Shown here: in pieces, positions 1,351 through 54,570 of the stretch
Layout of the letters: each line of letters starts with the position of its first letter
Position numbering within the stretch: position 1 is the first letter of the stretch
NCBI GenBank assembly: GCA_963920765.1
Contig: OY987244.1
Coordinates: 5,644,501 to 5,708,500, forward strand
Length of the DNA stretch: 64,000 bases
DNA from: Ulota crispa
Lineage: Eukaryota > Streptophyta > Bryopsida > Orthotrichales > Orthotrichaceae
Direction: 5' to 3'
The notes under the pieces: model-generated
Database searches by the model: none
The model's input: the letters and a program-made list of their open reading frames with translations, nothing else
What the model was told of the DNA's origin: nothing
Program-made: the position numbers and the translations under genes

Positions 1351-2612
1351 TTCTGGCTCCTGTTTGGTTCATTCTTCTGGTTGTGCAAGCAGCGATGAGC
1401 ACAGCGTGAGTCGTCTCCGGAGGTGAGATTAACAGTCTACTCTTTTAACAGTGCCATTCTACATTGTGTTTAGTTCCGTTAACAATGTGTTATTGCAATG
1501 TGGCTGATTTGTGGCTTGGTCTGCTGACTTAGGATGGCCGCCTGCGAAAAAGTGGAGCGGAGGTTGGAACTAGAGGTAGATTTCTGTTCCTTTTCCTTAT
1601 GACTTCGATTGCTGTGGTGTTTGAGAATTTAAGAGAGCGAAAGGTTCGGTAGGTTCATTAGCGCGTGGATTGTTTAGTTTGTTCGTATCTAGGGTGGATT
1701 ATGCCGCTGTGAGGCGCTGCTTCGGGGTTACCAAAGCAACTTGCCGAGACACTGCCGAGGTGATCTGTAGTGTTGCGCTCTGTCAACATACCGTAGTGCT
1801 TTGTTGGGAGTGATAACTGACTGTTTTTTATTTTTTAAAATATTGAGTGTTTTGGAATTGTTTTTTGGTTATAGAATTAGATTTCATATGAAAACTAGTT
1901 GAAATTTAATACAATTTTACAGTTGTTGAAAGTGAATCTTGGTTATTAGACGGCCTGTTGCGAACACCGACAAGGTGCTATGGTAGTGAGATGAATCACA
2001 CCTGTCTGGGGACGATTGTTGCTCAATTGACATCAACCCCTGACGTATGCAGCTCAGGTGTATTCTCACCATAGAACATACGTAAGGTGTCTCCTGAGAA
2101 GCACGGTACCCTTGGCTGTCATTGTGTAGTGCCCTGTAAAGAGCATGAACCTTTTTTTGAAGAAATATCACGTTCTAGGTTGCCATTTAACCTTTATAGA
2201 ATCGACAGTTCAGGTTTTTAAAATGTCCGAATTCGTTGATCATGTTTTGACAAACATGAATCAGATAAGGTCAAATTTATAACCAGAAGCTTGAAGATTA
2301 TTGCATGTATTTGTAAAACAAAAATAGAACTGGATCCAGTTAGGTGTGCTATACCAGAAGCTTCAATTTGGGCTTTTGGTCCTGTAGGAGTTAAAAAGTA
2401 ATGAATTTGATGAAGCTTCTGTTGGACTTTGTGCTGCAGAAAACGATTCCTTTGCAAATGCCCTCCCTTCGTGATCCCAAAGGGGGTCACTACTGACTTT
2501 GGGTCAATTAATTCCACAAAAATTCCCAGCAGCACATGAAGAGGGATAGCTCTTCCAGAATAACTCAAAGGCTAATGCATTCTAAGGTACATGGCACATG
2601 TACTAAAACTAC
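1351..2612 (+). promoter_or_regulatory. Probable promoter / 5' leader of the RDR gene
   Basis: This region has a higher GC content near 1360-1800 than the intergenic DNA. It holds possible leader splice donors, such as GGAG|GTGAGA near 1420. A short open frame starts at the ATG at 1534 and reads into a donor-like GAG|GTAGAT at 1575. The frame of the main start codon (2613) has an in-frame stop at 2604-2606 with no AG acceptor in between, so the 1534 frame cannot be spliced onto the main protein directly at that point. I infer a spliced 5' UTR with a possible uORF. The transcription start cannot be placed from sequence. Confidence 0.35.
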
Positions 2613-5600
2613 ATGGATCTCCCTCCTGCAGTGGAGAAGTTGATCCTGCAAGTGCAACGGCGGCACTCGCAGGTTATTGACAAGTTGACACGGTGGTGGT
2701 TGCACAAGGCCGGGGAGGAGAAGGCGCTACAGATTCTGACAGAGGTCGAGCTTGTGAAAATCGAGAGCATTCGAAACCTAACTGGCTTTGTCGTTAACAA
2801 GGCGAAGGTTTCCTTGGGCTACGTTTCTCCACAATTAGCGCCTTGTGAAATGAAGGCGAGTCCCTCTGGGAGTGCAGCTTGGGCTCCCTGGTCTCAGACA
2901 AAAAAAGAGCCACCCAAAACCGCGCCTGCTATCAGTGATGGTTTATCAGATTCTACGCTGCTGGAATTAGACATTGAGAATAGGATTCAGAACAAGCCAG
3001 GGGATTGTGGAAGCTATAGAGAGAGGCCAAATTCGGCAGTGCAACCTCCACCTGTATCAAGCCAAGGCAGCAATGAGAGCACGGGGTGTGGGGAAGTTGT
3101 TGCTGCCGTACCATGCCATTCCGAACTGTCTAGACATCTAGAGCGCACACCGAAGCCTGAGCCGTACACACGTTTGGGTATGCCACCATCATCATCACAT
3201 ATTGTTGAAGACAGTAGCTCTCAGAAGAAGCGATCCGTTGTTGCTGATAACGGAAGCTCCAGTGGTAGAAACATGAAGGCTAAGCAGGGCGATGATGGGC
3301 AGCCGAAGCTGTTTGATTTTTTCAATCATTCCAGAAGCTCTTCACCTGCTCTTAGTACTTGCGCCTCACGTCCGATTTTGAGCGGTTCTGTGTTTGCAGA
3401 TGCCCGCAAACTTGACTTTGGTCCGGAGCCAATCCATCCACCCTCCGATCTCACTGAGGTTTTGCATCCAAAGTCCGAGGGGGATGGAGGATATCAGAAG
3501 GAATGTGCATTTCGGTTCAAGGGGTGTGCACTTCAGGGGTCAGAGTTTCCAACATTAGACCCAGGGACTATCCGTGCTTTTGGGGAGCTGTCGTTCATCA
3601 AACGCTTCCTCATCCTTGATCACTGTAAAGAGTAAGAGTTCAACCCCTTCAAGCCAAAGCTAACAACATGTAGCCCACTTTGGAGGCTAACAGTTGATAA
3701 TAGTAGATAACAGTAACTTTTCTAACATATTTCTACCGTTCACAAATGTAGGAAATGATTTCTTCTTTCTATTAGTACATATGTTTACCTTTGAAACTTC
3801 ATATATGGTTCGTTTTAACTCCCTCTAGTTTTGAAATCGGTCATCTTTAGTGATTTAGGCATTGAAGTTAGATCCCAGTTTATAAGAGAACAGAGTTCAC
3901 AAATAGTTGGTTTGCATCTTGCATCCTTGTCACTTTTGAAACAGTGATGTATTTGTAGTTGTTCTCTTTAATGTGGTCGAATTAGTGCACGTGTTGTAAT
4001 GAATATTGGTGTGATTATTGGTTGCATTATAAAGGCCAGGAGGATATCCACCAGTGGAAGAGCTGAAGTCCTATAAAAACATGGAGGTGGAGGAGACGGA
4101 TAATCGGCTTTTTCACCGAGCTAATCGTGCTTCTCACATTGCCATGGTGCGCATGTCTGGCCTTATCTGGTGCATTGCAACTTTCTCATTTTTTCTTTCC
4201 TATTAGTCTCACCAGCTAGTTTCTTGCAGAGAGATTGGTCTAAGTTGAACGGAGGACAGTTGGTGTTCACTTGCAATGTGAAGCACTCCGGCAAATGCGA
4301 ATTTTCGGTAGGTTTCCTCTCAACCTGTGAAAGCTGTTCACCGTTTCCTATCATGGCTCTTAGTGTTTGAACATTTTTCCCGTAATTTTAGATATACTTG
4401 CTAAGGTACGCTCGTGCTGATGTGACGCACATTGTAATGCTTCTTGACCGTTTTATTACTTGCTTTGCAGATTAATGTAAGTGTTTCAATTGAACGCTTA
4501 GACTGAGATTTCTTGGTTTTAAAAGACTGATTTGATGAATCATATTGTGAAAATTGTAACCCAGATGGGACCAAATTTATTTCACTAGAATCAGTGAAGA
4601 ATATTGCACATGTCGGTAAAAAATTAATTAATAATGAAAGATATAAACTTCCATATGACCCACTCAATAGTGCTAAAATGAAACACGAGGTCCAATGTGG
4701 GCCTCTTAGTTCTGCAGGAATTAAGTCCATTGCATGACAGGAGAAAAAGTCGGCGGTATTTACAGGGGCCGCAGTTTGAAAATGGGGGCACACCATTGCA
4801 GCGAGCATTTGGTCAGGAGAATATCCTCAGGGTTAACTTTGAAGACGCCGCATATGATCACCACATGATTTTAGATCGATACAGATGCCTTGGCCTCCAT
4901 GGCATCCGTTGTGGTTTAAAGAAATTTGTTTTTTACGGTACGTTATCTAGGCCTATGTATCATTCTGAGCCAGGCTTTGTATTGCTAGAAACTTATCACT
5001 ACGTTCAAATTATATGACAGTGAACCGATTCACGGCATTTCAGCTTTGGTATTCATTATTAGAATGGTATTTTTTGATGTGCGTCTTGTCTCCAATGTTT
5101 GAGAGGATTCGAGTTCATTATGATATGTACTATTAGGATAGTGCATGAATAAGTTACTAGTTGATTACGCTTGAAGTAGTAGGGTCCTAATCACGTGTCT
5201 AGATTTTCCTGGCACCATATGTATTGCGGTTTTGATTTATTTCACATTGTGATAGAATTTAGAAGCTTCTCGTTTCTTACACGTCACGTATTTATATGAT
5301 ACTGGCAAAGTAGATGAGCGAGTTCTCATTCTATGGGAAAGGGACTTCATCCAAATGGGGTTCCTTTCCTTAAAAAGGTTACTTTCTGTACATTGTTGAG
5401 ATTCTGCTGTCATGTTGGCTGTATTTCTCTGCTCTGAGCATTTCAGCGTGAGCACATTGAACGTGATGGCGTACTGCATTGATTAGTGCAATATGCTCAA
5501 TGTATAAGTATATATTATTGCAATTTTACAGTCCTCAAGGGTTTAATGCATGTGTTGTTTCACTCTCGTGTGCAGCATATAAGGATGCTGATGCTAAGAA

Positions 5601-8600
5601 AAAGCAAGGGGTTTCCAAGAAATCAACGTATGGTTGCCGGAGTGTGTTTCTTGCCATCGATTCCTGTGCATCTGCAGATACGGAAGATATATTCAAAAGG
5701 TTCAGAAGTATTGCTGATGCGCGTAGCTACATCATGCATCCCACGGTGCCGTCTTTTGCCAAGGCAATTTCAAGGTACTTCAACATTTTTTGGGAATCTC
5801 TGAGTGATCGTTGACATACAGTTGCTGTTTTCGCTAGGACAATGCTTGGATCACTTTTATATGGATTAGATAAAGCTTTCAGTCAAACTGCCCTCTCATC
5901 TGATCCAAAATCGAGGACATACTAAAATCAAGATAGCTTATACATCTTATTTGTGTTTTTGCAATGAAAAAAATAGACTCAGTCCCTTTTTAATTGCACG
6001 CTCTGTCATGGCACATCGCCTGTGTAACCCGAGAATTATCTCTTACCGTGTACAATTTGGATGTGGGTAGCTTCCACATGTGAGATGTGAACAGAGCAAC
6101 ATTACGTTTTAAGAAACCAAGCTTATGGTTTCAGCTTTGTCCTTTTTTGGCTTTGTGTCAGAATAATTTACAAGAAGAGATGTCTCCCGGTAACAATTAA
6201 CTTTTAATTTTGCTATGATGCGGAAGGTCTATCGTCAACTAATATGCACATCTTTAGGCTGCAGCTTGCGTTGTCACAAACAACTCAGATCCCACTGGAC
6301 TTTCAGAAGGTTCATGTGGACTTAATTGATGACATTCCTTGCCGGGTACTTTTCCTCTCTTTTGCTGGAAGTATTTTTAGTTTAGTAAGAGAGGACTTTA
6401 TTATATTGCAGTTTGTTCTTTTGTATCTAACACAAGTGTCCGAGTGCCTTATAACTAATTTTTCTACTTGAATGTAATGTCAGGATGAACATGGGAATGT
6501 AGTGAAGGATGCAAATAACAAGCTTATGATACACACTGATGGTTGTGGGTTCATCTCAAAGAACCTGGCTACACTTATCCAGGACGTGGTCATTAAGGGT
6601 ATCAAGCGGCCAGAGAAGGTTGATCAAAAGAATAAGCAGGTACTACAAATTTTAGAGTCAATCTAATGGTAGAGTTTGTGGGTTAACCTTGTTACTCATG
6701 GATTTGTTTTTCTCCTTTAAAAGTCGTTTTTCACCTCTTCATTCTCTTTCTTTTATCAAACTTTCATTCTCGAGTTCATAGACTGTACCAAAATGATCTT
6801 TTTGATTGATTATTAAAGTAGGAAGTCAATGTTGATGTTTGTATTTAGTATTTGTTTCTCTTGATTTGAATGCAAAGACGAATCTGAGGCTAAATTTCTT
6901 TGAGTAACATACATAGAAACATGCAATTGACACACTTCGAATGAAGAACCCTCATGATTGAAAAATCTCCTTCATTTACGGGTTATCAAACTTTGTTGTT
7001 TGAAAGATTCATTTTTCAAATGTTCACTTGATTTTGTTCTTTTCTGTGATTGTGGAAACTGGATGGCTCTGGTAGATGGATTTGTTTTTGGGTAGATGTC
7101 CTAGTTCTATGAATGGACTGAAATTGTCATTACGTGGCTCAGAATTTGAGTTTTGCGACTTGAGGAATTCCCACGGGGCCTTCTAGGTGTTTTCGGGGTT
7201 AAAAATTCAGTTCATGATTTTCCTATCCAATGCAGGAGTATCCTTTGATGATGCAAGTTCGCGGGTTCTACCAAGGCATGCTCTGGAAAGGTGTGCATAT
7301 TGTTAACCTCAAGGTATGTTGTGGCAGCTCCAATTTGACATGTATTTGTTAGCAATGAAACTTGTGCAATGGAGAGTCAAAATAATTTTTGGACTAAAAC
7401 TAGAGTTTCATTTGGAAAGTGATCGTTAAATTTTCACACCATCACTGGTTATGACGAGATCATAGGGATCTTTACGACGTAGAATTTTTCTGTCCGCTAT
7501 TTTCTGACAGTAGAACACTAGGAACTGAAACCTGTGTACTCCACTTACGGCGTTCCACTGAATGAGTAATGACATGATTTATTATATTCAGCTCCCGGAC
7601 AACACAATCCAAGTGCGACCCTCGATGTTGAAAGTGGAGCGAGACAAGAGGCTCCCCTCGGCCACTTTTAACTCTTTGGAGCTTTGCAACACTAGGTATA
7701 ATACTGTACCGTATTCTCAATAGATATGCTTGGTTGTGTGATTATTGTTCCAAGGAACTTACAACTAGAAACAAACTAAGCATACTCTGTAGCATTAGAA
7801 TTATTTTCTTGAGGGAGTTGTTTGCATTTAGAGAATAAGTTCAACGCATTTTAATATGTATTATTTGGATATGAAAAAAACTGTCAATACTTTAAAGTTG
7901 TGCAACAAATACCACCTGACAGTTCCGCTGTTTAGATGGTGTACATTTTGAGCCAAAACTTAGTGTGAATTGCTTCAGTTTAGAGTTGCTTTCTGGTGTT
8001 GCTGTCTTACTATCAAGTATAGAGGAACTATAGATTTCTGAAAATTGTGAAAACAATAAAGCAAGCGTGTATTTCAATTGTGATAATGCAGCCGAAGGCC
8101 CTCAGATGCAAGATTGTTCCAACACTTGATTCTCCTTCTCAAAATTGGCGGTGTGGAAGGCGAAGTCTTGCTGAAATATGTGGAAGCAGCTGTAGAGAAG
8201 CTCAAGCTGTACTTCACAACTCCTGATGAAGCATTACGTGGTAAATGTCCAAATATTGACAGCTTTGTCGTTTGGGCAGCATCTCGAAGTATACCGTTAT
8301 CATGTTTGTCATTGCATTAGCCAAACTTAAATTGTAGAAGAGTTTTACGTTTTGCAATACATTAATTGATATGGTTAGAAGCATTTAGTTCATGAATGGC
8401 TCTGGCTAGTTTCAGAAAATAAAGTATCATATATGACCTAACTACAGTTGAACATATATACGTAGTTTGCTACATAAAAAAAGGGACATGTTCTAACAGT
8501 GCTATACACCTGTTTATATCATGAAGTTGTCGTCAAGAATATGGACACTTACAGGCATGGAGAGCTAGCGTGTGAGATGTTGATGGCCGGGCTGAAACCA

Positions 8601-11600
8601 GGAAAAGAGCCCTTTTTACAAAAGATTCTCCTTGAGATTGTTAAGAGTAAGCTTCAAAGTTACCATTTGGGGAAAGTGCCTGTGCCGAACACAGCATACC
8701 TAATGGGTTGTGCTGATCCTACTGGCTTACTAGAGAGAAACCAGGTGGCCATCCTCTTGTAAGCTCCATTCCATTTTTCGAAGTTTCACAGCTGATTGCA
8801 TTTACTATTTTTCGTTTGTAAACTAAGATCTATGCAATTGATTTTTGAACACCGTTTGTGTTGTGACAGTGGCAATGGTATGAGGATTTGCCNNNNNNNN
8901 NNNNNNNNNNNNNNNNNNNNNNNNNNNNNNNNNNNNNNNNNNNNNNNNNNNNNNNNNNNNNNNNNNNNNNNNNNNNNNNNNNNNNNNNNNNNNNNNNNNN
9001 NNNNNNNNNNNNNNNNNNNNNNNNNNNNNNNNNNNNNNNNNNNNNNNNNNNNNNNNNNNNNNNNNNNNNNNNNNNNNNNNNNNNNNNNNNNNACAAAAAT
9101 ATTATATTTCTCTTTAGAACAGGTTTAAAGACACTTTCACCAAAGGCCCCTGTGCTTTGCCCAAAAATTATGAAGTGATTTTTTTGCAAATACAAAATGA
9201 AATGATAAAGAATGTACTTTGTTGCAGAATTTTTGGAATCTTGAAAGATAAGTTTTGATAAGCCTCTATGTTCTTATGTTCTTAAAATGGTGCCTGCAAC
9301 ATACTTTGATCAACACCCTAAAATATACGAATCAACTTTCAGTTCCTTGGTACGTCGCCCAATTATTTTTCATATTCTCCATCCTTGTTTAGAAACTAAA
9401 GTCATAACACTGACTCCCTTGCACTTACTTTCAACCCATGCATCTTGATTTGCACGATGAACTTCACCATAAATATATCGAAACACCTTTTGATGAAAGG
9501 ACCTTCAAGAAATCCTATGTTATTTTTATTTATTTTTGAAGGGACGTTTTGAAGAATGGAGATAGGTTTTGGAAACTTTGACAATAGAACACTAGAGCAC
9601 ATATTGGAATATGTTCGTCACTTGCTGCCATTCGAACATATTGGAGCAGCACCTGAAATCTTTTCTTAATATATCATTCTTCTTGACGTATGTGCTGGCT
9701 GCGTTTTGTTCTGTTTATATTATTTTGAATTGATTGTGTTTTAATGTAATGTTTCGTTCGTTTTGGTATGTTTAAAGTCCTGGTTTTGTTCTTGTTTTCT
9801 GAGAACCTTGGTTTGAGCATAACAATTCTGACACACACCAGTTTGTCTTTTTCAATGCAGTAAAATCAAGGGCACATCAGCAAATACGTGGCTTGCTCTC
9901 ACCGATTGCACCATGAGTAAGAATGTGCTTGAGGTTGACAAAGTACGTGCAAAGAGAAGCATTCCAGCTATTGTAAATTTGTTTTACGAGGCTCTAGATG
10001 CAGACAAGTCTGGCAAGGAGGTTAGTACTTTGTTTCAACCCCCCTAGAATTTGTTTTTTTAGCCATATTGTCTTATTTGTTTGCCCTCTGGTTATAAAAA
10101 CTTGATTTCAATTGAAAAGTGTACGGTCTTTTGAACCAGATTAAATGGTCCAAGGACTTGCAGTGCCACGTTTTTCCCCACTTTTTGGAGAAGAATAAGG
10201 ATGACAACCAAAATTGGAATGGCTTCAGTTGTAAAAAGCTTCCAGCCAGAAAGTTCAAAGAGTACAAATCGACTTCCATTCTCGGGCAAGTGTATGATTT
10301 GGTCAAGGGAGAGAATTTGGACACGCAACTTGAGGGTGCGTCTCCATCTGACTTTGTTGCCTTGCATCTTGATTGGGAGGATAAATGTTTGTGCCTTTTG
10401 AAGGTTCTCAATTTCAGTTTCAGTAATGTAGCTTTTGTGAGTGTTGAAAATGATCTCTGATGAACCGCTTTTATGGCCACATGCAGTTAATTCGGATGCA
10501 TTATTTGCGTATGAAGGTTACAACGAGTACTACCAATATTGGCTCACTCAATTCTCTGAATATAAGAGACGGTTTGACAGTGAATTTCAGAAGCCTGAAG
10601 AGCAGAGGTTTAAAGACTGTGCCTCTGAGAACATAGTTGCGCATTACAAGAAGGTACCCTACCCCTTTTAATCCTTTGCTTGTGGTTTTTTCATGTAACT
10701 TATAGCCAGGACCTCATGCTTTAAGCAGTTTTAGTAAATCCATGTATAAGTTGTTTTTCTGTCCAACTTTATTCGTCTCCTTGACCAATATATGCAAATG
10801 TTCTTCCCAAATAGTATTTAGCAGTGGAGTTAAAGTGGAACAGAGTATCTTTTCGTTAGAGTCCATGCAATGAAAAACAAATCTTTAGTAGTGAACAAGG
10901 GTATGCTCCAAACCGTATCAATTTTATTTTAACACTTCTTAGTTGCATTTACTTGTGAACTCCGGTTTCTTCTGTCTTTTTGAGTTTTTTTGTTGAATAT
11001 TCAGCTCTGGACAACAATAAATCATATTGCAGACAGAAACTTATTGTGCTCTTTCGATTTTAAAATGGGGACTGTGATGAATAAGGTTATGCCATTCACT
11101 AGTAGTACAAAAACTTGGCCTCATGCGAATTGTATTTTCCCAATATGATCAATTGAATGATCTTTTTAAAACCATGGATCTTGGGTCTGTAAGGATTGTA
11201 TGAGTTAATTGTTAGTGAAGGAAGGTAGAAAAACCTAAAAATGTGTCAAATTTTTTTAATGAAAAATACATACTTATTGAAGAAATGTTCAACATTTGTT
11301 GCAGGATGTTTGACATTAGGACATTGAAATTAGGGCAAAGATCTAGAATATCTACCGATTACCACTTATGACTTTTGCGTACAACATTCAAATGTCGTTT
11401 TTGGACTTACAAGTAATGCCTATTTTTTTTTGTGTGTAACTGAAAAATTGGAGTTCACTAACAAAGTACCATGGTTGTCATGTTGTTTTTCATAGCCTTT
11501 TAACAATGTACGGGCAATGTACATTTGAGGAGGTGCACCATTTTAGAGCCCTATGGCCTTTCCACTTCAAAATTTCTTAAGCAATTCCATAAAGCTCCAA

Positions 11601-14533: not shown

Positions 14534-15787
14534 TTAACCCTTGCATGACCGAGAGGACCAAAATGGTCCTCATATTATTTCACATGCACATTTGAGGTAT
14601 TGGATTTAATTTTTTAACATTGTTGTAAACTATGATTATCAAGGCATTCAAGTGGTTCATGCAAGTGGAGTAATGGTAAGTCAAACTAAATGTTGTATAA
14701 GAGTCTAGAGAGCCTCAATTGAGTGAAATACCATACAAGTCGTAATGGCAAGTAATTAATGTCTTACAAGCTGCAATTGGTCAATATCCCTTGCAAGCTC
14801 CTTTGCATGTGCTTTGTGGTAGTAGGAAAATCACTAGCAAGGGTTCAAGATTGTTTTAGATCCTTGTCGTGGCGACGTTGCCACAAGAAAAATTGTCCGC
14901 ACTGACATGTTTGAATTGACTATAATGTCCAAATTGACAAAAATTTGATAGAAGTGTGTCCAAATTGACAAAAAAGTGTCCGAATTAGGGTGACCTAATT
15001 GACAAAAAAAAGTCCAAATTGACACTGCTCCCTTTTATTAACCCTCATTGATTGTGTTGCTCATCATTTTCCATGCAATAGCAATTTGAAGCTCTAAAAC
15101 TTGACATAAAAAGAAGTGCAATCTTCAATATTTTGCTAGTGTGTGTATTCACATCTAATATTGCTACTCACCAAAATTGAGATGAATTTGCATCTTATAG
15201 AATTTTGTTAAAATCATCAAATAGCAACTACTTGCCAAAAAATGAGATTTTACCATCACATGCTGTTTGATCAAATGTTATAATCTCCCATCTCCCAAGG
15301 TCCATTGTTCCATAAGTTTCAAGCCATTTTCCAAGTTAATGTTCTACTATTTTCAATTGTCAATTTTTGTGAATCATCCAATTGACTGAGATACGATGCA
15401 TCAAAGTTGTAGGTCTTCCAAAACCCTGATATTAGGGGGCTTCAAACATAAAATCATGAGTTTCTCACCTCATAGGGTCCTAGCTGATTAGTGAATTATT
15501 TTCATTCACACATGCCCAAAGTTTGAGACACCCGTGAGTTTGCCAATAGCCTCAAGTAGGGTTTTGTGCACAAGTTGGGGCTAAGACACACAAGTGGACA
15601 AGCCGTGCAAAGGTGAATTTCTAGGGTTCAGTCCTAAAGTGAATCACGTTAGTAGTGAATTTCAAAGATGAGTTACCTTGCTGTATACAAGTGAATTCAC
15701 AAAGGTGAATCGTGATGTGAGTCACTTGAAAAAATGGATGTTTGAAGCCCCCTATTGGTGGAAATGGCCTAGGCGCTCAAGGGTTAA
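14534..15787. mobile_element. TTAA-bounded element, family A (copy 1)
   Basis: It begins TTAACCCTTGCATGACC and ends GGCGCTCAAGGGTTAA, so a TTAA duplication encloses inverted ends starting CCCTT. The interior matches 34586-35349 and 56468-58133 (shared blocks include GCATTCAAGTGGTTCATGC and AATAGCAACTA). No transposase is present. A TTAA target with CCC-type ends is typical of the piggyBac superfamily, so this is probably a piggyBac-like non-autonomous element. A small CACTA-like insert lies at 14878-15039. Confidence 0.8.
14878..15039. mobile_element. Small CACTA-like insert nested in TTAA element
   Basis: This insert interrupts family A relative to the 34.6 and 56.5 kb copies. It starts near CCACAAGAAAAATTG and ends near GACACTGCTCCCTTTTA, resembling the CACTACAAGAAAA termini of plant CACTA elements. 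Inside are several spaced copies of GTCCAAATTGACA in both orientations, like CACTA subterminal repeats. Related copies are at 39509-39626 and 42806-42904. Confidence 0.55.
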
Positions 15788-16019
15788 CCCTTAAAGGACT
15801 AAGCTACTAGAATACATACTATGTACACTGCTAGGTAATTGGCATTTGCTACCAACAAAAAGTTTTAATTTGGGATCTTGATTACCTCACTAGAACATCA
15901 TTGATCTATATTCTAACTTCTTTGTTGATCTCAAATGTAATAAAAGTGTGAATGCACTACAGAAAAAATACTCTGTATTGTTCTGACTGCAAAGGGCTGC
16001 CTTGTCGTTTCGGGGTTAA
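15784..16019. mobile_element. TTAA-bounded 236-bp element, family B copy 1
   Basis: It starts TTAACCCTTAAAGGAC and ends in GTTTCGGGGTTAA. The interior includes GGCATTTGCTACCAA and GTTTTAATTTGGGATC. It shares its first TTAA with the preceding element and its last TTAA with the next. Confidence 0.8.
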
Positions 16020-16247
16020 CCTCTAAACGTCTGTGCGTGCCGCTCCAACCAATTCAATACGGGGTATTTTTCTTGTATTTGAAATGGATCCACACCTCTA
16101 CTACATTTGAGACCAACAAAGAAGTTGGAGAATAGATCAATGCGGTTCTAGTGAGCTACTTGAGATCCAATTAAAATTTCTTATTGGTAGCAAATGACAA
16201 TTATACTTCAGTGTATATACTATGTCCTATGGACGTTTAAGGGTTAA
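16016..16247. mobile_element. TTAA-bounded 232-bp element, same family, inverted
   Basis: The interior is the reverse complement of the copies on either side, for example GATCCAATTAAAATTTC and TTGGTAGCAAATG. It is bounded by shared TTAA sites at 16016-16019 and 16244-16247. Confidence 0.8.
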
Positions 16248-16476
16248 CTCTTAAAGGACCGCTCTACATATTACATAGTAAATACGCTGCCATATAATTG
16301 GCATTTGCTACCAATAAAAAGTTTTAATTTGGGATCTTGACTAGCTCACTAGAACCGCATTGATCTATATTCTAACTTCTTTGTTGATCTCAAATATAGT
16401 AAAGGTGTGGATGCATTCCTAATACAAGAAAATACTAAATATTGTATTGGCCGCAAAGGGCTCCTTGGTCCTTTAA
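16244..16476. mobile_element. TTAA-bounded 233-bp element, same family, copy 3
   Basis: Same orientation as 15784-16019 and highly similar to it. It starts TTAACTCTTAAAGGACC and ends GGTCCTTTAA. It abuts its neighbours at single TTAA sites. Confidence 0.8.
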
Positions 16477-16884
16477 CCCTTTAATGACCGGTCAACTAGT
16501 TCTTGGATGATTTTGACTCTTTTCAGTTTGTAGGGTGAGCATGTCAAGGAATTTGATGATGTGGCAAAGGGGACGGATTTGGGGAATTGGAAAGTGAAGA
16601 GTTTAGGACAATAACTAGGCCAATCTAAGGTGGCATGTGGCTAGAGGGTTGAAAATACTAAAAGAGTACCGGCTGAAAATACATCAAAGAATGCAAAAAG
16701 ATGACCATAAAAACTAAAGAGTGAGCATAATTCATGATGCATAACACTAAACCTTGCAAGATACTTCCATCTGTATGGTCACATTTATGATAGACATATG
16801 TATTCAATAACCCTAAAATTTCTCCAAATGGCCATAGCAAGGATTGCCCACGCCCAGAATCGACCATGGTCGTTAAAGGGTTAA
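16473..16884. mobile_element. TTAA-bounded 412-bp element, different interior
   Basis: The inverted ends are TTAACCCTTTAATGACC and GGTCGTTAAAGGGTTAA, matching at 16 of 17 positions. The interior is unlike the other TTAA elements in the chain. It is the last of five end-to-end elements and lies 136 bp upstream of the methyltransferase start codon. Confidence 0.8.
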
Positions 16885-17019
16885 GGGTTAAGGCCTCCAC
16901 TGTTAGGTACAACGGCCATTCATCACAAAACCATAGCCAATTTCTTTAGCTATGGCCTAAAGAAGCCCCCATGGCTATGGCCTGAAGGAGCTCATCACGA
17001 GTTCACGACTCTCCTCGTC

Positions 17020-20000
17020 ATGAAAATGCTCCACCGGCTTTCCTCGCTTCACCACCATCCACTGCCTCCCGCGCCATTCTCTCTCCGACGCAGATTATCC
17101 GGGAGACAGTTCATCAGCGCACAGTCTCTAAATCGCAGCAGCGATGATGTTCATATCAAATTGAGAATAATTCTGAGGCCTCGAGGTGGACGGACTTCCA
17201 AGCTTCACTCCTTGGGCGGATCTCCATGCGGAGGCGATGTGAAGGCGACCGTGGATGCGAGGAATGCCTGGGAGACCGACCATGCAGACGAAGACGTGCG
17301 CGTGCTTGCCAAATTCCAATCCTTGTACGTCTTTTTCTTTACTTCGGATCTGTTTCCTTTACATTCAAAGCAGTTAATTGCTCATCTTCCATTCAGTTTT
17401 ATTGTATTTCGCCAACACTTGTAATAAGGTAGAAGCACCTTAACGTGACACTTTTGTTACATCAATTCTTCACCAGAAGTGTGCATCGAGATTTTGAGAA
17501 ATGTGACACTTTTGTTACATCAATTCACCAGAAGTGTGCATCAAGATTTTGAGATTGTAGAATGGTTAGGAAACCGGGCAGAGAGTGCTGAAAATTTGTT
17601 TTTGGAATTTTCTGAGATCGTATGAATAAACTACGAATTGTTGCAGGTAATTCCCTAGACACACCTATTGTGCACACTAGACCCTCATTGAATTGCTTGT
17701 TTTGAAATGCAAATGCAACATCAAAAAGATCATGTCACATGCTGTCACTTACACAATTTTTGTTCCAATACTCAATTATGGTGATAGCTTTCGCTGACTT
17801 GCATGTCTGATTTGGGTACCTGATGGTTCAGATATGGGTTCATTTATAGGTGTCCAAAAACAAATAGTGTCATATTAAGGTGCTTCTACCTTACTGTTTG
17901 CTCATTCCGATGATGGCTAAAATCCGGCGTCCTATATTTCCACAATCACAATCAATGATCAATTAAGGTAGAAGCACCCAAATGCAACACTTACCTTAGA
18001 TGTGGTAATTGGGAGGGTCTTCTGAGAAGAGAATCTAATGGCATGGGCTTGTTAGGAAATGGGTACAAATGCAAGGAATTTTTTTTTGGAATTTTCTAAG
18101 ATCATATGAATAAATTATGAATCGTTGAAGACAACTCCCTAGACTTACCTATTGTAAACACTAGACCCCAAAAAGCGACAGCAAAAAGACCATGTCTTGA
18201 CAACAAAAAGACCATGTCACACCCAATCACAAATTGTCACTTGCACAATTTTTGTTCTCTTATGTTAACTTGCATATCTAGTTTGGGTGCATGCGTGTCT
18301 TGTTTGGGTGCAGGAGTGTCTACTTTTAGGTTTAATTTTAGGGGTCGCTAAACAGCTAGTGTTGCATTTGGGTGCTCCTACCTTATAGTTGTTGTTAGAG
18401 GAACAAGCCGAGTAATTGTTAGAGGAACAAGGAACTCTTTGGTTAAGGTAGGAGCACCCATAAGCATCAGTGTCCCCATAACCGTCACCTTGGAAATCTT
18501 GGAAAATCTGTGGAAATGAATAGATGTAATGACAAGGATGTACAACATGTGAACATGAAATCTTGAAAGTGGTTATGGGTGCAATGGCAGTTTGCTCTTT
18601 AAAAACTCACAACTTATTCTCACAGTATCCAAATAATACATTCAAAAGTGCAAACTCAATTTTTTTTATTCTATTCCTAATAGGATCCTATAATTTGCTA
18701 GTTGTTTATTAATAGTCATCATGTTCAAAACACTTAGTTTGACGTTTAAGGGTTCTCCTACCTTATGTAGGATTTGAATTCCGTTCGAAATGCCGAAGGC
18801 TTTGGTTTAGAGTATTATCCAGACATTTGGAATAAAGCATGTCCTGTTTGGATGGATGCCTTCTTAGGTACAACTTTGTGCAGGTGTTGGAGGTTTCGAG
18901 GAGAGCGGACCACTTCCTGGCCGGCTGCAGGTTGCTTCTGCTGGACCGGCCTGGCAATATTCAAAGTGTGTACAATCCTTACAAAATGATAACAGATTCT
19001 TACTATGACATCTTTGCAACGCTGCCTCCTCTTCTTCCTGATGGCCCTGTGGCCATCTTGGGATTGGGAGCGGGGACTGCTGCTCGCATCCTCCTCCATT
19101 TCTGGCCTCATGTGGAGTTGCATGGTTGGGAACTCGATCCTTCTGTCGTCATGGTTGCTCGGCAGTTTTTTGACTTGGCAGTGCTGGAACAAGGCGCATT
19201 GGATCCGAAGTCCTCTCTAATTCCAGGTATTTTGCAAAACCTTAGTTCTGATTCACTTCAACCTAACAAATGCCTAATCTCACTGATGACAATTACGTTT
19301 TGAAACTTTTTGAGTGAAAACTTATCAGTTTGTTTTAAGGTAGCAGCACCCATAACCGTCAAACTAAGGGTTTTGAACATGATGATTATTAATAAACATC
19401 TAGCAAATTATAGGATCCTATTAGCAAGAGAAAAAATGATGAGTTTACACTTTTGAATGTATTATTTGGACATTGTGAGAATAAGTTGTGAATTTTGAAA
19501 GAGCCGACTGCAATTGCACCTAATACCAACTCTAAAGTTTCATGTTCACATGTTGTACATCCTTGTCATTACATCTATTCGCTTCCATAAATTTTCCAAG
19601 ATTTAGAGGTGATGGTTATGGGTACAGTGATGATCATAGGTGTTGCTACTTTATGACTGTTAGGAGTTTTTGTGAATTTTTGAAGTTGTTTCCCAAAGTT
19701 TGCACGAGATTGTGCTTATTTTGACCTTCCGTGAAACGGTCCAGTGCTTTCTTTGGATGAATCTTAGCAGGTAATAGTGTTTTATTTGTTTAAGCTTGAA
19801 AGACATCGAATGAAAAGTTTTAGATGCATGGTTTAAGGAGTTAAGTGAAATCGGAACCTACCTTAAATGAACGACAGTCATAGCCATCTTTGTTTGGTTT
19901 TCCTTCTGCAATGTTTGTTAACTTTGCTGGCTGGCTCAGATAATGTGGCTGGCGTGCAGCTACCTCGACAGGAAAGGATCCGAACCATGTTGGGAGGTTA

Positions 20001-24747: not shown

Positions 24748-25311
24748 AAAATCAAGACATTTGAATCCACATTCAAATTTCCCAAATCCAACCTTTCAAA
24801 GCTAAATGTCTAAGCTCTTACATTTTTTGGCTGGTGCAAAATCAAAACTTTTTCCACCCCCAACCCCAATAAAACCAAACCACTCTCAAACTTTGTAAAG
24901 GTAAGGTAGGAGCACCTTAAATGGACACTTTTGTTAAATCAATTCAAGAAGAAGGTGCACTAAGATTTTGAATACAAATTTCTCTTAGGAAATGGGCACA
25001 AATGGATAGAAAATTGTTTGCATATTATTTTGCAGTTTTATGAATAAAATATGAATTTTTGAAGATGAGGTTGTAGATACACCTATTGTGAACCCTAGAT
25101 ATGTTGTAAATCGGTCATGAACCTTGGGAAAACAAGCATAGAGAAGACCAAATGAGTGGACACAAGAGTCCAAGAATAGATCACTTTAATGCTTAAAATG
25201 GTCACTGTAATCGCTCATATCCATGGTTTGTGTCCTATTTGCCCAACTTCTGGATCCGATACGAGCTGTTTTATAGGTGTCTGTAAATGAATTGTGTCCA
25301 TTTAACCCTTT

Positions 25312-26215
25312 AGAGACCACGAAACCATATTTTGGTTTGGGAGAGTAGTATTTGGCCTATAGAGTAAAATTGCTCAACAATTTGGTAAACAATCTTGAAG
25401 AACGCTTGTGATCACAAGAATTTTGCATCCAACCCAAGAAATGACAATGGAATCGGATATGGGAGTTGATAAATAATAGTGTTTATACATCATGGCCTCA
25501 AAATACGTATCCATATTTGGTCATAGATGGATCAAAGCAACAACACAATACATCAAACATCCAAGAAGAAAGCCACATTTCAATTGTGCGGTCCCAAAAA
25601 ATTTCAAATTGCTCAAGAAATACGCTTGTATTGTTTCTCTATACAGTTGTATCATAATTGTAGTATTTCAAGATCTATTGAAATGGTGCTATCATTTCAT
25701 CTTCAAAATATATTGTCCTACATTTAAGGCCAATTCTTGATTGTTTTCACCGATCGGATTTTCCATAACAATTATCAAATTTCTTGTAGAACCATTTTAG
25801 GGTAGCAAAGAAAATGAGATTTTTGACCCTTTTTGTTTACATAGCTACACCTTGTGATTGCTATTTTTGTCTATATTGTGTGAAACTAGTCATGTTGGAT
25901 AGGTGGGACACCTTGTTTTCTAAAATGTAAGGCTCTTCTCAACTAAAACTTGCATGAAGCGTTAACATTCAAAACCACACAAGCATGAAAAACTAGAAAT
26001 TTCCCATATACGGCTCACTCAATCATTATAATGTTTCACCTTCAACGATAGATCTAGCTGAAATTTTGATACATTACAACACACAAGGTGTCCTTCACAT
26101 TTGTACGGTTGGATTATTCAAATTGGGTCCATATTTGATTCAAATGCACATCTAATTTTATTACCCCGATTTCTAATAGATTTTGAGAAAATATGTGTGA
26201 TCTTTAAAGGGTTAA
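25312..26215. mobile_element. TTAA-bounded element nested in MITE
   Basis: It starts TTAACCCTTTAGAGACC and ends TCTTTAAAGGGTTAA. It is about 904 bp, without a supportable coding sequence. Short overlapping open frames at 25466-25740 look random. Confidence 0.75.
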
Positions 26216-26275
26216 CCCGTAAATGCCCACGCTATCAAACACCGAAATTGGGTGCCGTGGGCATTTACGGGTTAG
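26212..26275. mobile_element. 64-bp palindromic TTAA mini-element
   Basis: It reads TTAACCCGTAAATGCCCACG, then a short loop, then CGTGGGCATTTACGGGTTA. The arms are 19 bp and perfect. It abuts the preceding TTAA element at a shared TTAA. Such an extreme internal deletion leaves little more than the termini. Confidence 0.75.
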
Positions 26276-34585: not shown

Positions 34586-35349
34586 TTAACCCCTGAACGC
34601 CCCAGTAATGGGATCCCGTTGGTGGGGATTTCATATGCTTTTTTGAGATCCCAAATCTAATTTTTTGATCTAACTATAAACTACAATTATGAAGGCATTC
34701 AAGTTATTCATGCTAATGGAGTAATGGCAAGGAAAGTCAACTATTGTACAAGTGTTGCAAGGGATTTGATTGGGTGAAACACCATACGGAGCGTGGTGGC
34801 AAGCATGGTTTTATAAGCTACAGCCGGTCAACATCCCTTGCAAGCTTCCTTGTGTGTGCTTTGTGGTAGCAGGAAAGTTGTTGGCAAGGGTCCAAGCATG
34901 TTCTAAACTCTTATTATGGCAACTATCATGAACTGTGCCGATCATTGTTTCCCATGCAATAGCAATTTGAAGCCCCAAAACTTGACATAAAAAGAAGTGC
35001 AATCTTCAATAATTTACAAGTGTGTGCATTCACATCTAATCTTGCTGCTCACAAAATTTAAGATGAATTAGGGACTTGTACATAGAATTTTGTAAAAATC
35101 ATCAAATAGCAACTATTTACCAAAAATGAGATTTTGCCATCACATGTTGTTTGATCAAATGTTATAGTCTTCCATTTCCCACAGTCAATTGTTCCCAAAA
35201 ATTACAAGTCATTTTTTAAATAGGTGTACCACTATTTTCAATGGTCACTTTTTGTGAATCATTGGATTGACTGAGATACAATGCATCAAAGTTATCGATT
35301 TCCAAAATACTTGATTTTGGTGAATACAGCCTGGGCGCTCAGGGGTTAA
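34586..35349. mobile_element. TTAA-bounded element, family A (copy 2)
   Basis: It starts TTAACCCCTGAACGCCCC and ends GGGCGCTCAGGGGTTAA. At 764 bp it is the simplest family A copy and lacks the inserts found in the copies at 14.5 and 56.5 kb. It is therefore a good reference for those nested insertions. Confidence 0.85.
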
Positions 35350-47794: not shown

Positions 47795-48115
47795 TGCACA
47801 CCCTAGAGATAAATTTTAGATTTCTACCGTGATAAGGTTGAAATTGAGATTTTTGAATTCATATTTGGACCTAGAGACCATGATTTTGTCTGGAATCGTA
47901 GAAAGGTTGCAATTGAACAACACCCAATGAAAAAGCTTAGCTAGAGAGAATTTTTTTACTTTTACTTTTGTTTGTAAAAAAGGATAAGCTTTTTCATTGG
48001 ATGTTGTTCAATTGCAACATTTTTTATGGTTGCAAACAAAAGCATGGTCTTTTGGTCTGAATCTGAATTCAAAAATCTCAAATTCAATTTTTTCATAGTA
48101 AAAATCTAAAATTTA

Positions 48116-48493
48116 CCCCGGGGGTGTGCGCGCATATATCAACCCCGGGGGTGTGCGCGCATATATCAACCCCGGGGGTGTGCGCGCATATATCAACCCC
48201 GGGGGTGTGCGCGCATATATCAACCCCGGGGGTGTGCGCGCATATATCAACCCCGGGGGTGTGCGCGCATATATCAACCCCGGGGGTGTGCGCGCATATA
48301 TCAACCCCGGGGGTGTGCGCGCATATATCAACCCCGGGGGTGTGCGCGCATATATCAACCCCGGGGGTGTGCGCGCATATATCAACCCCGGGGGTGTGCG
48401 CGCATATATCAACCCCGGGGGTGTGCGCGCATATATCAACCCCGGGGGTGTGCGCGCATATATCAACCCCGGGGGTGTGCGCGCATATATCAA
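48116..48493. repeat. 27-bp tandem array, 14 identical units
   Basis: Each 27-bp unit has a CCCCGGGGG block, then GTGTGCGCGCATATAT (16 bp of strict purine-pyrimidine alternation), then CAA. Two shortened units (24 and 20 bp) follow at 48494-48537. The period is divisible by three, which leaves long open frames on both strands with a 9-residue period. These are not genes. Confidence 0.95.
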
Positions 48494-48537
48494 CCCCGAG
48501 GGGTGTGCATATATCAACCCCGGTGTGCACATATCAA

Positions 48538-52056: not shown

Positions 52057-52711
52057 TTAACCCCAAAACAACCCTTAGGACAAAATGTGTCCTCAACCAA
52101 TTTTTAAAGTTAAATAAAACCTTACCAAATTTGTGTTTTGAGTAGTTTATTTTTTTGAATTTGTTTTTTTGAAGTTTGGTTTTAGTTTCAACAATTTGAT
52201 TTTGCAAATGAATAATTAGGATTTTTCTATTCAAGATTTTGTGCACGGGTGTCCATTGCAATCTTGACTTCATGTAGTGTTGAGGGCTCTTGGGAATGAG
52301 CCTCAAACACTCTAGATGTTTGAGAAGAAATCACATTAGAAATTCATTTAAAAAATTGTAGAATAGATTTTGAGAAGTCATAGATTGAATGGGGTTATGC
52401 ATGTTAGGCCCTTTAACCTCATATTTTTTTGGTGACCATTTTTTTGAATTTGACATGTGAAAAGAAGATTGAAAGCCTTCAAATCACTTTCACAATTTTA
52501 ACAACCTCGTGACCAAACATTATAATCTTTCAATCCATAAGAGATATTGTTGTGTTTTCTTTTCAAATGTGATCTCTAACATGTCTAATTTGATTTTATA
52601 CGTTTAAAATTCAAAAAGAATTGATACAAATTATCAAAAATGTTGACATTTTGTTCAAATTATAGCAAATTCCTAGAAGCTCAAGAAGTTCCAGGGTTAT
52701 TTTGGGGTTAA
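52057..52711. mobile_element. TTAA-bounded element with AACAACCC ends
   Basis: The left end is TTAACCCCAAAACAACCC. The right end GGGTTATTTTGGGGTTAA inverts to TTAACCCCAAAATAACCC. It is 655 bp and non-coding. Its ends differ beyond the first bases from the other TTAA elements, so it is a separate subfamily. Confidence 0.8.
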
Positions 52712-53100
52712 CCTCAAAATGAGGTAACATAAATGTAAAGAACTCCTAACTTTTCTTTTGGAGTTTCTATTGAAAACTAAGCTTGTTATTATTCAAATAG
52801 TTGGAGCCTTATGAATAAATGCCTCTCCTCTTTTCAAGAGCGCTTGTATCATCATTGCCTAAATATTCAAGAAGGTACTCTAAACTCTTAGAAATGTGAA
52901 GATGAGTAACAAACTGCAATCACGAGGAATTCTAATGAATTGATGACTTCCAAACGAAAGCATTAGATTGTAGTACATAAATCAAATCCATGCAACTCAA
53001 TCTATCATTGAATTCACCTACGTATATAAATAAACTTAAATCCCAACTAGTTTAGAAATATTTAAATATAATTGTGCATTGAAAGTTAGTGACTTTCAAA
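52712..53100. other. Intergenic, nothing recognised
   Basis: AT-rich, no gene. It ends with GTGACTTTCAAA, which is mirrored after the microsatellite by TTAAAGTCAC. Confidence 0.4.
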
Positions 53101-53322
53101 GATATAGATATAGATATAGATATAGATATAGATATAGATATAGATATAGATATAGATATAGATATAGATATAGATATAGATATAGATATAGATATAGATA
53201 TAGATATAGATATAGATATAGATATAGATATAGATATAGATATAGATATCGATATGGATATGGATATGGATATGGATATGGATATGGATATGGATATGGA
53301 TATGGATATGGATATAGATATA
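53101..53322. repeat. GATATA/GATATG microsatellite
   Basis: 24 units of GATATA, one GATATC, 10 units of GATATG and 2 units of GATATA make a compound hexanucleotide microsatellite of 222 bp. The period is divisible by three, which creates open frames of repeated dipeptides that are not genes. Confidence 0.97.
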
Positions 53323-54570
53323 GGGAATTGTTAAAGTCACATTCAAAATTACTAACGTTATACTCCTTGTGAGTAGGTAATTTGAGAATGTAATGCTAAT
53401 TTTTTCAATTCAAGTGGTCCATCATTCATTCAATTGTAGTAATACCATTTCCTTGAAAGAAAGAAGAACAAATAAATTATTATGTTGAACTTTTGTGGCT
53501 CCATAGATAAATTTTATGCATTTTTGCTTTAAATAATTTAAAATTCCTATCTTTTGAATTTCAAATTCAAGCCCCTCCAAGTTTTTTGAATTTAGCCTTA
53601 GAATGATAGAGGTGAAACAAATCTTTGGATCCAAATCAATAAAATGAGCACTAAATTCTCACATTTCATGTTCAAGGACACTTTGGGGTGTGGCATTAAC
53701 AATTTTGGGTGTGGCTTTAACAATTCCCTACATGTATTGCTTCATTTTTAGATATTAATTTTTTAATTTTTCTTCTTTTTGCAATAAAATTGAACACAAG
53801 ATAAAGACTTTTCTCATGAGAAGGAGCCTAATAAATTAGATTATCACTTTGAAGACTTGGCGGAAGATTCAATAACAAGTGATAAAGATGTATGGTTGGT
53901 TATTCCTTCATGGATAAGGCGTCCACATATCATGTCAATAAAAAAAGTAAACAAGTCTCATGCATAAGGAAATTTGATTTTTTCATCCATTGTCATGTTA
54001 CTAAGATTTTTGTGTTAGTTCTTAAACATTAAACTTGTAAAGGGTTTTGTTCATAACTTTCCTTTACATTTATCCATCCCTTTACATGTGTTTCAAATAC
54101 TAGTGTTTCTGAAACAGATTGTAGAACACTTGACAATGTGTTAAAAAAATCTAAGCTTTGGGTTTCACTAAATGCCCATTGTTTGTTGCAGGATTTTGCA
54201 TATAGTCTTTAGTGCAAACCAAGCACATTTAAGTGGTTTAGTAATTGTAAAAAGATTATGAAACTAGTGTTTGCAAACCAATTGTAAGTGATGGGATAAT
54301 TCGAAGAGTACAAGTTAGTTTCAGCTGAAAAGCCAGTTCTCCCTAATTTCAAAAGAAAAAACCATAAAAAAAAGGGGGAAAATTTGCCACAATAAAAAAA
54401 CTTAACAATACAAAAGGAAGAAATATAAGCATATAATGACTATTTATTTTGAATTCCCTGATCAGTTTCAAAAGGATTTTGAATAAGTATTTTCAAAATT
54501 TATAGTTAAATATTGATGAATGCAATTGCAGCTCCAACAACACAAACCTGGTACAAGTGTGGTCTTGGGG
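53323..54570. other. Intergenic, nothing recognised
   Basis: AT-rich. A short local repeat of GGGTGTGG(C)...TTAACAATT occurs at about 53685-53725. No gene is seen. Confidence 0.4.

Follow-up and report, generated by a model that had tools for sequence, protein, structure and literature searches.

In the moss Ulota crispa five TTAA-bounded elements stand end to end, each with a TTAA in common with the next, and at one of the joints the order of arrival can be read: the fifth element went into the fourth, at an inner TTAA rather than at the terminal one. The chain is very probably one of non-autonomous MITEs of the piggyBac superfamily that was built up by successive cut-and-paste insertions. 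That the end-to-end block is itself real, and not a chance pattern, is confirmed by controls both for the end word in the genome and for the end motif in the window, the window being the whole 64-kb stretch of DNA that was analysed. Its parts, with one feature inside the first element and one joint further on, are as follows (positions are those of the window).

14534..15787, + strand: E1, TTAA-bounded element, 1,254 bp
15424..15757: insertion within E1, with TA flanks and inverted ends of ~15 bp, GGGGGCTTCAAACAT / ATGTTTGAAGCCCCC, identified by eye
15784..15787: TTAA common to E1 and E2
15784..16019, + strand: E2, MITE of the ~233-bp family, 236 bp, 9% from the family consensus
16016..16019: TTAA common to E2 and E3
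16016..16247, - strand: E3, MITE of the ~233-bp family, inverted, 232 bp, 20% from the consensus
16244..16247: TTAA common to E3 and E4
16244..16476, + strand: E4, MITE of the ~233-bp family, direct, 233 bp in place, 13% from the consensus
16473..16476: TTAA that was the target of E5, originally 7 bp inside the right end of E4
16473..16884, + strand: E5, MITE, 412 bp
16885..16891, + strand: displaced tip of E4, GGGTTAA, beyond E5
26212..26215: further TTAA joint, between a 914-bp element (25302-26215) and a 64-bp hairpin element (26212-26275)

All five of the elements that an earlier, sequence-only reading had placed at 14534-16884 are present at those positions, and its statement that neighbours overlap by one TTAA holds at 15784, 16016, 16244 and 16473, with the reservation that the last of these is not the terminal TTAA of E4. 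Core and arm alignments bear out that E2, E3 and E4 are of one 233-bp family with the middle copy inverted: E2 and E4 have a direct core of 144 nt at 89% identity, and the 101-nt arms of E3 and E4 are 88% complementary. E2 to E5 have the properties by which MITEs are recognized, as they are 232-412 bp long and non-coding, have terminal inverted repeats and are of high copy number, and within the chain (14534-16884) there is no ORF of at least 150 aa. The family of E1 has a size of ~765 bp, with relatives at window positions 34586-35349 and from 56468 onward, and in the fetched loci L015, L047 and L057; E1 itself has been enlarged to 1,254 bp by two later insertions, at ~14875-15044 and 15424-15757. 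As the second of these is missing from the other E1-family copies compared, it probably represents a different type of mobile element. Outside the chain a joint is clear at 26212, and there is a weaker candidate at 52708. The element at 26212-26275, 64 bp in length, is nearly all hairpin and is flanked by TTAA at one end and by TTAG at the opposite one. Some 130 bp lie between the end of the chain and an open frame whose ATG is near 17019 (window 16885-17430), and the chain may occupy a gene's promoter region.

How can it be told which of two abutting elements came later? E4 in place stops at ..CTTGGTCCTTTAA (16476), the GGGTTAA that is missing there is found right after E5, and removal of E5 in silico restores CTTGGTCCTTTAAGGGTTAA. 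Since the tip of E4 stands beyond E5, E5 was inserted after E4 and is the younger of the two, and what it entered was the inner TTAA, 7 bp inside the E4 end. The sequence-only reading had proposed repeated insertion into the terminal TTAA of an existing element; serial insertion is directly shown by E5 in E4, but the TTAA used there is the inner one. At the E1/E2, E2/E3 and E3/E4 joints either neighbour may have been the earlier. The signature of a displaced tip, TTAACCCTTAACCC, has 786 exact sites in the genome against 13 for its control. When 20 joined loci were fetched from the upper rows of the list of matches to E3 plus E4, and their joints classed by eye, a displaced tip was present in six (L084, L087, L088, L092, L094 and L097, mutated by one base in L087 and L092), the joint was sub-terminal with no clear tip in two (L101 and L102), terminal in eight (among them L100, with a decayed partner end), and too decayed to class in four (L086, L089, L093 and L095). 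TTAACCCTTAACCC is a directional marker, and wherever it is present it may be possible to read off which of two insertions came first; relative dating and a preference for self-targeting become testable genome-wide with this sub-terminal marker.

The mechanism that we favour would have a piggyBac-type transposase insert element DNA at TTAA with duplication of that TTAA, so that each inserted element would then have TTAA at both tips, with many ends carrying a second one 7 bp inside. A later insertion into such a TTAA would make the newcomer abut the older element, with the TTAA in common, and in the case of E4 and E5 use of the inner TTAA would have left the severed 7-bp tip of E4 beyond E5.

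A genome-wide search for the ends, which the sequence-only reading had proposed, was made on the 274.8-Mb assembly of 157 contigs, from which the other genome-wide counts were also taken, and the end word TTAACCCTTNAACG is enriched, with 3,107 exact matches versus 55 for the reversed word. The form of end that has a second TTAA 7 bp inside, TTAACCCTTAA, has 11,293 matches versus 1,396 for its reversed word; any element that enters that second TTAA is bound to have TTAACCC on its far side afterwards. In the 64-kb window the ten-base end motif is matched at 10/10 by 20 TTAA sides versus none for the complement control, and at a score of at least 9 by 35 versus 3, while of 55 ends 50-51 have C at any given one of the three bases that follow TTAA.

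The E2 search of the genome yielded 2,667 first-look candidates, of which 40 copies were scored, all with at least 85% identity. For the 29 family copies besides those of the window the 30-base flanks differ, as judged by eye, and in 55 of their 58 ends a TTAA is at most 4 bases from the edge of the match; the remaining three ends, one each in L016, L035 and L038, have one-base TTAA variants. With E5 40 of 721 candidates were scored and, E5 itself excepted, they are 88-90% identical and either full length or at most 3 bases short. These two family searches show that paired copies bounded by TTAA, in differing flanks, are present elsewhere in the genome, as had been anticipated from the window.

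Is the TTAA duplicated on insertion? The flanks of 105 called end pairs were joined by one TTAA and compared with all the fetched sequence (the 105 include overlaps, and the window twice; pairs with a flank under 60 bp were dropped). Four cases were judged informative, most of the other matches being to neighbouring family members. In L070 a 546-bp element occupies CTTAAAG, which is single in one place in each of L066 and L065, though other copies of the site (at a second place in L066 and in L046) are without TTAA. L047 has two joined elements (1259-1507 and 1504-1738) in place of the single TTAA of a 94% identical repeat copy. So for two insertions, that of L070 and that of the L047 joined pair, the expected empty sites with a single TTAA have been found. 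In the other two informative cases, L002 and L007, the site is unduplicated but diverged. In L002 the host of a 233-bp copy is a ~765-bp element, of which six continuous copies are without the insert (L015, L057, L047 and window ~15283, ~35173 and ~57951; L009 coincides with the window). Those empty copies read TTGA or TTGC at the insertion site, and so a mutation to TTAA presumably preceded the insertion in the L002 host. For L007 there are uninterrupted repeat copies in which the site has diverged. At these related sites the TTAA target is duplicated on insertion.

A piggyBac-type transposase is present in the genome, largely as decayed genes. A search for its domain, PF13843, in which 116 of 528 candidates were scored, found 120 matches, with a best E of 1.3e-73, and no match in 14 control genomes; by our own count there are stops in all but 10 of the 120. 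At five of six transposase loci examined the domain lies between inward-facing candidate ends of TTAACCC type, with 11-15 of the first 16 bases agreeing, and the lengths between the end pairs of these coding elements are 5,027 bp (C3), 5,102 bp (C2), 6,010 bp (C4), 5,586 bp (C8) and 5,746 bp (C5). At the sixth (C7, L073) the end pair is weak, with 10/16. The transposase that had been sought on the strength of the window is thus found, and within elements of like ends. Two transposase fragments compared with solved structures both match piggyBac 6x67 and piggyBat 9c0f, that from L071 at 1.6e-25 and 2.7e-21 respectively, and the VDE and CDN aspartate motifs of the latter fragment align with those of 6x67; a GVD.ADQ motif is seen by eye in L073 and L074. 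The aspartates of VDE, CDN and GVD.ADQ may be the catalytic residues. How close are the coding elements to the members of the chain? The 5.6-kb coding element C8 matches E5 at both ends, over 67 bp at 71% on the left and 38 bp at 87% on the right, and on that likeness it is a plausible partner or parent of E5. For the other window elements compared no such two-sided match to the five coding elements was found (for one of the five the comparison covered 60 bp of the right end), E3 has a single weak one-sided end match to C2 (41 bp, 71%, E 0.006), and apart from the end motif E1 to E4 have little in common with those coding elements. A PF13843 transposase may be what moved these copies.

Some further loci may be mentioned. 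In L083 (C1:1177000-1185100), at ~2091-5341, a piggyBac transposase is present in three ORF blocks, with the matched domain free of stops. It is possibly a domesticated, intron-bearing host gene. When a chain with a coding element was sought there, beside L039, a left-facing end was found ~2 kb downstream (1184004) and no right-facing partner in the 3.7 kb fetched upstream, so that a chain was not seen. The two spans of 2.3-2.6 kb between inward-facing strict ends in L069 and L070, examined for a transposase, have no long ORF, and each instead holds at least one smaller element.

With the TTAA target, the CCC..GGG ends and a PF13843 transposase in elements of like ends, the piggyBac-like character that the sequence-only reading had suggested is upheld. 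However, piggyBac is not the only superfamily to target TTAA, and Kolobok-type transposition also duplicates it (PMC9587614). The termini given for Kolobok in that source are 5'-RR..YY-3', with AG in Xenopus (PMC6004289), and those here are 5'-CC..GG-3', because of which Kolobok is disfavoured; further, it is a piggyBac transposase that is found in this genome. Transposition by Kolobok, the other superfamily with TTAA as its target, is very unlikely. Shared 5'-CC..GG-3' ends are reported for piggyBac and IS1380 (in a passage of PMC10045372), and seamless excision is described for piggyBac (in PMC7351741) and may be presumed here.

Granted piggyBac-type transposition, did each element arrive separately? 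The side-by-side presence of three copies of one family could suggest local tandem duplication or unequal crossing-over, but E2, E3 and E4 are 17-24% divergent from each other (the 29 copies elsewhere average 6% from the family consensus, in a sample picked for likeness to E2), and E3 and E4 have their nearest copies elsewhere, at 90-92% identity, the best-scoring matches to E3 among the fetched loci being L047, L046 and L043. In addition E3 is inverted, both of the chain neighbours are from other families, and such duplication leaves the displaced E4 tip unexplained. We give it almost no credence; to judge from the divergence, the three ~233-bp copies would be separate arrivals of already diverged copies and not local duplicates. 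An alternative that deserves a little more weight, though still improbable, is that pairs like E3-E4 were joined once and thereafter moved as one ~460-bp element, so that the chain would partly reflect a single insertion. Many loci do match E3 plus E4 as a contiguous 420-460 bp, and the L047 pair at one TTAA of its 94% identical repeat fits a single composite insertion too. However, the 20 fetched pairs and that of the window are at most 90.3% identical (median 83.6%, 156 alignments over 300 nt), and by that measure no two of them resemble recent copies of a single unit; the joints differ, being terminal or sub-terminal in either partner, and the displaced tip in 6 of the 20 records the insertion of one partner into the other. 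A very old composite unit behind the joined pairs is possible. Successive insertion of separate elements is the reading that we prefer.

Do elements of this type meet more often than they would by accident? The sequence-only reading raised the question of chains in excess of chance, and what can be said is divided: genome-wide word counts, with one background, give a 2.4-4.5-fold excess, but unselected local samples give none. Joint sites, GGGTTAACCC, number 3,258 in the genome versus 161 for the reversed word, and GGG precedes 224 of the 3,107 strict ends; of 30 joint loci chosen by that GGG, 28 have on the other side what looks by eye like an element end, L067 and L068 being the doubtful ones. 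With a background for ends of 0.73% of TTAA sides (15/2,052), the estimate is ~67,000 ends and 2,670 joints genome-wide, the joints exceeding a uniform null 4.5-fold, and a null scaled by 1.9 for local density 2.4-fold; the 1.9 is our own estimate. Another background, the reversed-word joint count (65,105), with ratios of 14-26, is not relied on, as CCCAATT is a different word with a frequency of its own. Of 55 ends from the 233-bp family, 10 adjoin a further element end (P 0.017 against 8.5%), and 7% of inner TTAAs (786/11,293) are followed by CCC, the mark of an insertion. Against this, joints in unselected sequence amount to 2 of 51 ends in flanks, none of 17 in L001-L008 and 2 of 25 window ends outside the chain. 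Ends with a motif score of at least 9 occupy 31/438 TTAA sites of the window, 50/588 of those in the flanks of loci, and 17/142 of those in L001-L008, a set of seven loci chosen for an end (L004 is omitted as an overlap). Because ~7-12% of the sampled TTAAs are already element ends, an excess over chance is no more than possible; we conclude that, to a first approximation, the chains are explained by random choice of TTAA in an element-rich genome, on top of which there may be a several-fold preference for element ends. Some 1.4 chains of at least five are expected genome-wide if joints are independent at 8% per end, and so a five-element chain is rare but not extraordinary. A tentative idea, on balance doubtful, is that the transposase may be drawn to its own ends, with the terminal TTAAs and those 7 bp inside used several times more often than other TTAAs and elements seeding growing chains. 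If true, the displaced 7-bp tips would be a genome-wide record, at ~780 places, of which element entered which.

The population to which the chain belongs is large, comprising coding relics and an estimated ~33,000 elements (15,000 with a harsher background). The mechanism is already known, and it is the abundance in a plant that is, in our judgement, unusual. LEAFY is plant-specific, and its SAM domain, PF01698, has six matches on six contigs of this assembly, of which one is strong and five are weaker, and no match in any of 14 control genomes; these matches, and the RNA-dependent RNA polymerase gene fragments of the window, fit a plant. The idea in the sequence-only reading that piggyBac is poorly documented in land plants is right for one land-plant TE review, where a text search shows that the word piggyBac does not occur (PMC9033089), but other plant papers do list it: piggyBac is placed among angiosperm MITE superfamilies in PMC10004981 and named among plant superfamilies in PMC10794571, and a table row in PMC6890710 has 1,230 PiggyBac copies for Ceratopteris. 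The presence of piggyBac in plants has therefore been published before. In the titles and abstracts of the open-licence literature, TTAA-sharing chains of piggyBac MITEs, or displaced tips, were not recognised for plants.

Apart from its elements the window has, upstream of the chain at 2600-10000 on the + strand, gene fragments for a cellular RNA-dependent RNA polymerase (PF05183), a minisatellite at 48115-48523 with 15 copies of a 27-bp unit (98% matches), and at 53100-53323 a hexamer microsatellite, AGATAT, of 37 copies. A Pfam search with 11 distinct window ORFs gave one RNA-dependent RNA polymerase match over the cut-off, one such match and one NAD-binding match under it, and nothing else. 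No Rfam family reached its gathering threshold in the window and no tRNAs were found there; of two window ORFs looked up in the PDB, one had no match and the other one chance-level row (E 0.66).

Nested or multimeric MITEs, with one MITE inside another, are known from grasses, where other superfamilies with different target sites are involved. KolobokP multimers resemble the present chain in being multimers and in having target duplications at their outer ends, but as described in PMC9587614 they have long terminal direct repeats and are ascribed to unequal crossover or circles, in contrast to the nested TTAA insertion of the window chain. The Xenopus T2-MITEs of Kolobok likewise target TTAA (PMC6004289), with termini that are given there as AGGRR, or RR..YY, where the window elements have CCC..GGG. 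The closest likeness in target, in ends and in enzyme is to Trichoplusia piggyBac and to piggyBat: TTAA is targeted and duplicated, the ends are 5'-CC..GG-3', the transposase is of PF13843, and the core AGGGTTAACCCT of a piggyBac end oligo given in PMC7351741 is also in ends of the window type. What sets the window elements apart from those two is that they are miniature and non-coding (against 5-6 kb for the five coding elements measured here), that their host is a plant, and that they form chains with displaced tips.
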